This document shows, one piece after another, positions 4,007-46,920 of a DNA stretch of 53,720 bases; the stretch's first letter is position 1; every line of letters starts with the position of its first letter. Below the pieces are notes generated by a model, which saw only the letters and a list, made by a program, of their open reading frames with translations, did no database searches and was not told the DNA's origin. The stretch covers positions 1 through 53,720 of the forward strand of contig JAKEHY010000030.1 in assembly GCA_022614805.1 (NCBI GenBank), in the 5' to 3' direction. The position numbers and the translations under genes were made by a program. The DNA comes from Candidatus Zixiibacteriota bacterium (lineage in GTDB: Bacteria > Zixibacteria > MSB-5A5 > DSPP01).

Positions 4007-4048
4007 TGACCTCGCTTGTAGATACCCGTTACCACGAGCTCCCATTAT

Positions 4049-4069
4049 CCCCTCCTTACGAAGGAGGGG
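4049..4069. repeat. palindromic repeat CCCCTCCTT/AAGGAGGGG
   Basis: A perfect nine-pair stem with an ACG loop, followed by ATTAAGGGGAGG. A related hairpin with the same ATTAAGGG tail occurs at 16205-16225, so this is a dispersed intergenic palindrome family. Confidence 0.7.
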
Positions 4070-4560
4070 ATTAAGGGGAGGTTAAACTAACCGCAAAGCA
4101 CCGCACGGGGTGGTTTACAAATTCATCCCCCACTTCGATAAGCTTTCACTTCCGCTTTTACCTATTCAGAAACCCCTTGAAAAATGCCCGGCGCAAGTTC
4201 CTGCTATAGAAGAAATTCAACCCGATGGCCGAAAAATAATTGGTCACATTTCACAATCCGCTCCCGCACAAGGCATTCAAGGATGTGTATTAAATTGCAC
4301 TTTCACCTAAAATCGCAAGCATTTTCCAACAGTTTTTGTTTCGCGATTTTCCAAAAAAACCCTCAATTTCGCCACTCTTTTCCTATCGTTTTTGTAAAAT
4401 CTGAAGGACTTTATGCCGAGCCCGCCGAACCGCCAATCATCAATTTCTCCTCTCTTTCCCCGCCGTTTCTGCCAATCTCCGTTTCATTCCCCCATCGTTT
4501 TTGTCTTGTTTTTCAATGATTCAATGACTCAATGATTAAATCCCATCCCCCCCTTACCGT
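4070..4560. other. gene-free stretch upstream of aspS
   Basis: No supported gene. The sequence is pyrimidine-rich and contains scattered TTTTTGT/TTTTCC runs. A short tandem array of the octamer TCAATGA(T/C) (three units, 4513-4536) resembles the heptamer/octamer arrays found elsewhere in the window. Short open frames here show no recognisable protein. Confidence 0.6.
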
Positions 4561-15636: not shown

Positions 15637-16533
15637 CGGTGGGTTAGGTCGTCTTTCAATCGTCAATCCTCAATTTTCCCACCTTTTCCCCTCCTTTCCT
15701 GACAAATTCGGTAGCCTTTCAGAGCGAGTCTCTCAAAGGGGGATTATTTATAGAGGGACGTGTGTAAGGGGATTGGGGTTTTCCCCAACCCCCAATCCAC
15801 CATCCCTGTTTCGTGCAACGGGTCGGCCTGGGCGCCACTGGCGTGTCCCAGCCGAACCCCAAAAGGACAAGGGAACCGGTAAAGCAAAGAACACGGGGCC
15901 CTTCCCTGGCGGGGTTGATTTCCCCTATTGCTTGGGGGAAAGGACGGCAGCTTTTTCCTTTACCCGGACCGCGCTGGGTCTTTGAAAGGGACCAGCGCTT
16001 TTAGACCAGTAACGCCTTCGCGGGGCTTGCCGCGCGCAAGGCAGAACAGAAAAACAGGCAGGCCATACGGAGAAGACCCTCACAGGGCTGCTCTCCCACT
16101 TTCACTGCTGTTTTAAAACCCATTGCACGAAAAAAAGAAACAAAAAAGGAAAGGCCCGGGGGCGGGGTCTCCCCGCCCCTCCCTCTCCTTAAACTAACAT
16201 AATTCCCTCCCCTATGAGGGGAGGGATTAAGGGTGGGGTCACCCCCCCCCGCAAAAACACCTGCAAAATCCCCCCGATTTTGCAGCCCCTGTCTTTCTGT
16301 CCCCCTGTACTTAAGGGGGACTATAGGGGGTGATTTTTGCAGCCCCTCAAAAATCCCGCTATAACTCCGCCCAAACTTTCCAAAATCGCAACCAAATCCC
16401 TTGCATTCTTGTCCCGAGCGTTTACCCCGAGCGAAGCCGTGGGGTAGTCGAGGGATTGGTCCCCCCAAACCCGCCTCAACTTTCCCGCCCCCTTGCCGAT
16501 AAAGATAGTAAGCTTTTGGAGGAGGGTTAATAT
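15637..16533. other. gene-free stretch with ten consecutive hairpins
   Basis: No supported gene. Ten stems follow one another: 15770-15798, 15820-15859 (long, two-part), 15919-15941, 15971-15998, 16014-16042 (GCCTT-CGCGG/CCGCG-AAGGC), 16069-16096 (GGAGA-CCCT/AGGG-TCTCC), 16159-16179 (GGGGCGGGG/CCCCGCCCC), 16205-16225, 16261-16285 (CTGCAAAATC/GATTTTGCAG) and 16299-16321. The last four look like dispersed palindromes. The first six are individually distinct and could be one structured RNA or a decayed mobile element. The open frames across the region have no recognisable protein content. Confidence 0.6.
16412..16454. repeat. interrupted copy of the TCCCGAGCG-TAGTCGAGGGA palindrome
   Basis: TCCCGAGCG and TAGTCGAGGGA are separated by a 24-base insert that contains a second, similar palindrome (CCCCGAGCG ... 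CGTGGGG). Uninterrupted copies of the 20-mer are at 10187-10206 and 18625-18644. Confidence 0.75.
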
Positions 16534-22718: not shown

Positions 22719-22753
22719 AGAGATTAGTGATTGGGGATTAGGGATTAGTCCCC
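22719..22753 (+). repeat. tandem heptamer array (5 units)
   Basis: AGAGATT, AGTGATT, GGGGATT, AGGGATT, AGTCCCC in exact 7-base register right after tRNA-Arg. Its end, GGGATTAGTCCC, can fold into a hairpin. Related arrays are at 11421-11441 and 39916-39943. Confidence 0.75.
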
Positions 22754-39886: not shown

Positions 39887-39915
39887 CAAATCTCCAAATG
39901 TATTGAGTTTTTACT

Positions 39916-39943
39916 AATCTCTATTCTCCAATCTCTAATCTCT
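39916..39943 (+). repeat. tandem heptamer array (4 units) between rpsM and rpsK
   Basis: AATCTCT, ATTCTCC, AATCTCT, AATCTCT in exact register. In the transcribed (minus) sense the unit is AGAGATT, the same as in the array at 22719. It fills the 60-base gap between two ribosomal genes. Confidence 0.75.
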
Positions 39944-46047: not shown

Positions 46048-46815
46048 TTAACTCGCCTCTTTGGACACCCGTTTTGCGGCGGGCTTGGCCGGGCTGCCGA
46101 AGGAGGGTAGCCTAGTCGAAGCCCCGGGGGCGGCAAACGGCATTCCCAATTCCTTCAACAGTTGAAACCCCTCTTCGTCGGAGGGGGCCGTGGTCACCAA
46201 AGTCACGTTCATCCCCCGGATTTTTTCGATTTTGTCATAGTCTATTTCCGGGAATATAATCTGTTCCTTCAAACCGAGGGTGTAGTTTCCCCGGCCGTCG
46301 AAGCCGTCCGGAGGCAGCCCGCGGAAGTCCCGGATGCGGGGGACTGCCACGTTGGTCAGCCGGTCGAAAAATTCGTACATCACGTCCCCCCGCAAAGTGA
46401 CGGTCAAACCGATGGGGACGCCGGCCCGCAGCTTGAAGTTGGAAATCGACTTTTTGGCCCGGCGCACGGCCGGTTTGCGGCCGGTGATGGCGGAAAGCTC
46501 GGCGGCGGCGGAGTCCAGGGCTTTCGGATTGGCTAACGCTTCCCCCAAACCGATGTTCAAAACGATTTTGGAAAGCCGCGGCACGGCGAGGGGATTTTTT
46601 TTGCCGAGGCGGGCCGAAAGGGCCGGGATGACCCGGTCGCGATAGTGGACCAAAAGCCGCGGGACGACGCGCTGGCGCGGCGGGGCCGCCTCGGCGGGAG
46701 CCGCGGCTCCCTTCGCTTCCTTTTCTTTCGATTCCTTGGCCGGTTTTCCCTTGGGCGCTTTGGCCTGCGCCGGCTGGGCCGGTTGTTTTTTCTTTTCTTT
46801 CTCTTCCGCCATCAT
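46048..46815 (-). CDS. rplE: 50S ribosomal protein L5 with N- and C-terminal extensions
   Basis: 255 residues against a usual 180. The conserved L5 core runs from about residue 48 ([14 protein letters not shown]) to about 227 ([18 protein letters not shown]). The first 47 residues are low-complexity Lys/Glu/Ala/Pro and about 28 extra residues close the C-terminus. No in-frame ATG lies nearer the core, so the head is likely translated. No Shine-Dalgarno sequence is seen upstream, where an octamer array lies. L5 binds 5S rRNA. Confidence 0.93.
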
Positions 46816-46832
46816 TGTATTTGCTTATTTTT

Positions 46833-46920
46833 TGATTTGTTGATTTTGTGATTTAAAAATCAACAAATCATTAAATCATAAAATCACTCAATCTTCAAAT
46901 CTCTCAATCTCTAAATCATT
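46833..46920. repeat. 11-unit tandem octamer array with an inverted half, between rplX and rplE
   Basis: Three TGATTTNN octamers (46833-46856: TGATTTGT, TGATTTTG, TGATTTAA) run into eight (A/C)AATCNNN octamers (46857-46920) in exact 8-base register. The junction forms a perfect 15-pair hairpin, 46833-46847 with 46856-46870, loop of eight. The last unit overlaps the end of rplX and encodes its last two residues and stop. The array occupies the position where the rplE ribosome-binding site would be expected. Confidence 0.85.

Follow-up and report, generated by a model that had tools for sequence, protein, structure and literature searches.

A probable two-armed copy of a dispersed octamer family in the rplX-rplE spacer of a Candidatus Zixiibacteriota genome

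The spacer between rplX and rplE in this Candidatus Zixiibacteriota genome (G000) was filled by an array of octamers. The array is probably a two-armed copy of a dispersed intergenic octamer family, abundant since the split from the nearest relative compared and tolerated in the spacer. In the window (the whole stretch of DNA analyzed, 53,720 nucleotides of contig C30), 11 GATT-core octamers were arranged in a single 8-base register at 46833-46920, three forward and eight inverted. GATT started on the plus strand at 46834, 46842 and 46850, and AATC at 46858, 46866 and onward in steps of 8 to 46914, in a phase common with the plus-strand GATT. The features of the site, and of a further arm in the window, were as follows.

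46833..46856, plus strand: short arm of three TGATTTNN units, GATT on the plus strand, antisense to the operon
46857..46920, minus strand: long arm of eight GATT-core units, GATT on the mRNA-sense strand
46833..46870, minus strand: perfect hairpin, 15 pairs, 8-nt loop
46911..47234, minus strand: rplX (L24), Pfam PF17136/PF00467
46911..46919, minus strand: end of rplX, ATG ATT TAG, which is the outermost array unit and ancestral coding sequence
46816..46910, minus strand: rplX-rplE spacer, 95 nt, array plus A-rich leader
46048..46815, minus strand: rplE (L5), with an N-terminal extension of ~70 residues, Pfam PF00281/PF00673 from residue 74
4512..4545, minus strand: another arm of the family, GATTTAATCATTGAGTCATTGAATCATTGAAAAACAA, intergenic, lacking a counterpart at the orthologous position of the congener G001

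The first-pass annotation of this DNA had described the eleven-octamer array and its perfect 15-pair hairpin with an 8-base loop, and both were confirmed, with 0 comparable chains in shuffled sequences. The stem was formed by TGATTTGTTGATTTT and AAAATCAACAAATCA around the loop GTGATTTA. Separation of the two genes by the array was likewise verified, L24 and L5 being identified by Pfam, and the L24 stop codon and L5 start were both intact beside it. The minus-strand spacer was folded at -19.7 kcal/mol (z -2.71), a stability equaled by 1/200 shuffles. As first described, the final L24 codons lie in the outermost unit, but this coding sequence is ancestral and no repeat insertion, because equivalent ends were found in the congener (GAAATGATATAG; ATG ATA TAG) and in other relatives (GAAATGATTTAA / GAGATGATTTAG). 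The L24 end may have served as a seed or docking place for the array, though it was not made by the repeat. The K/A/P-rich N-terminal extension of L5 (~70 residues, window 46600-46815) had a similar counterpart in the congener.

The gap was measured from the L24 stop to the first L5 ATG, and 28 relatives were scored. It was 95 nt in this genome, whereas it was 54 nt and non-repetitive in the one congener compared (G001; L24 91% identical) and 0 nt in the nearest outgroup (G002). A gap of ≤12 nt was found in 19 of the 28 scored relatives. Comparison among relatives gave a compact gap in most and no array in the congener. The earlier suggestion of a repeat growing inside an essential operon was borne out, by growth or by insertion. 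An array-like spacer (GTGAGACGTGAGAAGTAAGACGTAAGACG) was seen at rplX-rplE in three genomes of another genus of the phylum (G056, G036 and G024; L016, L021 and L022), and is an independent occupation of the gap.

Seven orthologous sites were compared with the congener (rplX-rplE, nuoE-nuoF, nuoF-nuoG, window 4512, tRNA-Cys/cysK, valS/mazG and C1:100840), and the array was missing there at 7/7. At nuoE-nuoF, both the congener and the outgroup had TAAC-ATG with a 1-nt gap, and this genome had a 55-nt array-filled gap; the array was therefore gained there in this genome. For rplX-rplE, gain is likewise indicated by the outgroup gap of 0 nt. Polarity was checked by outgroup at these two sites, and absence in the congener could partly reflect loss. 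The nuoF-nuoG gap in the congener was 9 nt. No clear target duplication was seen by eye at nuoE-nuoF or nuoF-nuoG. An assembly or binning artefact would be in keeping with a draft genome of 38 contigs, but is extremely improbable: the arrays are shorter than 100 bp, lie in unique flanks between intact genes, and share a common structure at ~15 sites.

The family was surveyed in sampled stretches (748 kb, about half picked for pattern matches and half taken regardless of arrays) and by whole-genome pattern counts. Arms of at least three units numbered 18 in the 748 kb, compared with 0 in shuffles and 0 in 322 kb of the congener; the unselected half alone held four family arrays. GATTN4 x4 gave 11 matches at five places in this genome (reversed-pattern control, 0) and at most one match in any other of 132 phylum genomes. 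With the wider pattern SATTKNNNSATTKNNNSATTK, 52 matches were obtained here, 2 in the congener, and no more than 6 in any other of the 132. Octamer arrays are thus present elsewhere in the genome. The two congener matches belonged to one array, directly after a nucleotide-sugar dehydratase-like gene. The unit consensus was ~[CG]ATT[GT]NNN, with ATT and one or two more positions constant. An inverted 3+3 arrangement of strict GATT units was found only in this genome, at C19 and at C30 (the window site). A third two-armed site, C31:27463, was a CATT variant (folding z -5.6), and most other sites were single-armed.

Besides rplX-rplE, arrays occupied the nuoE-nuoF, nuoF-nuoG, tRNA-Cys/cysK and valS/mazG gaps. 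The host genes had no common theme (ribosomal proteins, complex I, cysteine synthase), and further hosts, assigned only from the appearance of their N-termini, were obg, smpB, purF and valS/mazG. Several arrays were in divergent or upstream regions and several within tight operons. Arrays preceded the start codons of rplE, nuoF and nuoG, and the C19 array was upstream of, not within, a conserved cysK promoter-like sequence.

Other repeats were noted in the same DNA. A 36-bp palindromic repeat at window 4048-4083 (TCCCCTCCTTACGAAGGAGGGGATTAAGGGGAGGTT) had at least 7 near-exact copies in the sampled part of this genome and several in the congener, and resembles class 4 (CCYTC) of Geobacter metallireducens. 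Window 15792-16390 held a copy of a dispersed ~570-bp repeat, ~80% identical to copies on C31, C17, C1 and C35; the octamer arrays C31:37958 and C17:15107 were within some 70 bp of such copies. A heptamer element, ACAGRGATTAGNGATTGGNGATTAGNGATTAGT, was found at window 22719-22748 and 39914-39943 and at some 25 places in the genome, often near contig ends, and occurs in the congener too.

A common terminus, (C/G)ATT(G/T)(A/G)A(A/G)A and often ATTGAAAAACAA, was present on 10/18 arms. It followed 2.8% of the same cores elsewhere in the sample (p ~1e-11) and 7% in A/T-rich surroundings (p ~1e-7). Taken with the three two-armed sites, this sequence pattern is suggestive of a single element that spread, as opposed to slippage arising independently at each site. 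It is unlikely that each array expanded locally and separately, without any transfer between sites, from a GATT-like seed that its spacer already contained (here the ATGATTTAG end of L24). The ancestral end of L24 does share the register of the array, and the congener nuoF-nuoG gap (AATTAGAGAGTGAAG) resembles a unit, but identical core and terminus recur at unrelated sites, and the nuoE-nuoF gap was 1 nt and so offered no seed. For the spreading family, we propose that a short DNA insertion would be dispersed by a copying process and that its arms would then gain and lose length by slipped-strand mispairing; the varying unit number argues for such later slippage. Two-armed copies might form by snap-back copying of the first arm or through insertion of another. 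Mirrored order, expected of snap-back copying, gave p 0.21 in the window and a mean p of 0.42 over 35 pairs. Strict mirrored copying from arm to arm was evident at a handful of foreign loci (L321, L327, L162 and L198) and was rejected overall and for the window.

Arrays placed directly after a well-supported stop codon had the GATT/CATT strand as mRNA sense in 7/7 cases (after rplX, nuoE, nuoF, a cysteine-synthase-like gene on C31, a purF-like gene on C13 and two genes on C17; two-sided p 0.016, the arms not being strictly independent). The one array found in the congener had the opposite orientation. The sense bias may reflect function, or a unit that simply carries stop codons on that strand. 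A uniform orientation is not required of a neutral insert, and to that extent it counts against toleration.

Action on the mRNA, in which the hairpin and A/U-rich repeats would control L5 initiation or give RNase processing between rplX and rplE, was weighed against these data and is very unlikely. In its favor are the 15-pair hairpin ending 17 nt ahead of the first rplE ATG, the sense orientation after stops, and a similar interpretation given for TAACTGA repeats in ribosomal operons of Beggiatoaceae (PMC4679880). Against it, the gap is just 0-12 nt in most relatives, the nuoE-nuoF and nuoF-nuoG arrays folded no better than shuffles, and no Rfam family was matched, the search returning sub-threshold microRNA matches only. 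Given its distance from the L5 start, whatever effect the hairpin might have on L5 output would probably be modest.

In E. coli, the spc operon is autoregulated by S8 at a site at the L24-L5 junction that contains a hairpin. The window array shares the junction and the presence of a hairpin, but its hairpin is A/U-rich only and non-conserved, and the gap is absent in most relatives. Gaps of 0-12 nt leave most relatives without room for an S8-type site, and the array is not a conserved structured element of the junction. The link to S8/spc-operon control that had been drawn initially was therefore set aside. The same applied to the idea that the array occupies the site of the rplE Shine-Dalgarno sequence: none was seen before rplE in this genome or in the congener gap, which gives no evidence of displacement. 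A Shine-Dalgarno-like site was present in ~40% of predicted genes and in 24% of shuffles. An intrinsic terminator was also rejected; no U-run followed the stem on either strand, and terminator-scan matches were inside rplE, away from the array.

The first-pass annotation had left two outcomes, regulation of L5 or simple tolerance. Simple tolerance fits best, because the same family lies in unrelated gaps, and is more likely than a dedicated ribosome control switch. The array would persist because the spacer tolerates an insert that leaves the L24 stop and the L5 start unharmed. The array could take a direct part in controlling L5, with position and hairpin as the positive support; of the changed folding proposed for the initiation region, the placement of a hairpin near that of rplE is what stood.

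Published repeats were compared with the family. In G. metallireducens, 48 sites of four tandem octanucleotides GTTGCTYN form 24 opposite-strand pairs; a second class (TCTCCGTS) and a heptamer class were also described, no class had a counterpart in G. sulfurreducens, and IHF/HU binding was suggested for the octanucleotide arrays (PMC2700814). Class 1 is the closest published kind, with tandem octamers, opposite-strand pairs at variable distance, multiple copies and a congener without them. Tandem octamer units were found throughout the present family, and opposite-strand pairs at C30, C19 and C31:27463. The units differ, however: GTTGCTYN or TCTCCGTS, mostly in pairs, in G. metallireducens, and [CG]ATT[GT]NNN, mostly in single arms and without the GTTGCTYN consensus, in this genome.

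By analogy with that proposal, the arrays could bind a DNA-binding protein (a nucleoid protein or global regulator), the window holding one such site; we consider this quite unlikely. The shared architecture, including species specificity relative to a congener (PMC2700814), and the position of several arrays in divergent or upstream regions are consistent with it. The published proposal is itself only a suggestion (PMC2700814), though, and the arms here are often single, with a different unit sequence and hosts without a theme; several are within tightly packed operons, an implausible location for a promoter site.

TAACTGA heptamers, which precede start codons, including in ribosomal operons, and mostly without canonical ribosome-binding sites (MacGregor 2015, PMC4679880), are likewise short, tandem, intergenic, near starts and sporadic across phyla (Beggiatoaceae, Cyanobacteria, Bacteroidetes). 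The location upstream of starts and in a ribosomal operon was found here too, but the TAACTGA units are identical, recur with period 7 and are nearly always in direct orientation, one indirect case being reported (PMC4679880), and the present family has period 8 and a GATT core. As long simple sequence repeats are described in PMC4679880 (from Mrazek et al. 2007), they are tandem units of 5-11 nt beyond chance and genome-wide. The present arrays resemble that description in beyond-chance length (18 chains compared with 0 in shuffles) and genome-wide spread, and differ in that their units are degenerate rather than near-identical and some arrays are partly inverted. The window array belongs to the broad paired octamer/heptamer kind, and its unit sequence matches neither that of G. 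metallireducens nor TAACTGA.

Public genomes were scanned for four-unit AATC/AATG arrays; among the matches listed were Bacteroidota, Acidobacteria, Chloroflexota, Spirochaetes, Nitrospirae and others. In 14 of the genomes behind the listed matches, the three-unit GATT pattern was found up to 674 times (Caldilineaceae; reversed control, 0-7), and because these genomes were chosen by the core searched, a GATT core across phyla does not on its own argue for common descent. Many of the arrays formed inverted pairs with a core between the arms, as at 12 fetched loci of an Acidobacteria genome (G143; picked for having both arms listed), which mostly read (GATTTGGT)n GATT(T)GAAAACC, then a GC-rich core, then an inverted arm. 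A 33-bp stem with a 3-nt loop was found in Candidatus Hatepunaea and a 32-bp stem in an Anaerolineales genome; bin G133 had GATTGAAAAAC ends, as in this genome. It is conceivable but rather doubtful that a class of tiny spreading elements extends across phyla, moved or maintained by a shared machinery and having TGATTKNN-like octamer arms that end in GATTKGAAAA, single or paired round a core, with the window array as a minimal two-armed copy. Three array-rich genomes of other phyla (L332-L339) had arrays of 7-9 bp period with other cores, many mirrored around a short core, and one Bacteroidetes GATT array (L319, G136:C2:38928) was apparently inside coding sequence.

Under the favored reading of a tolerated, spreading family, the spacers of operons as essential as those for ribosomal proteins and NADH dehydrogenase can be invaded by a short repeat within a single genus and tolerate it, short gaps having thereby become gaps of 41-95 nt. 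The comparison also ties together scattered reports of paired octamer/heptamer arrays, with hundreds of pattern matches and a recurrent arm structure in several phyla.
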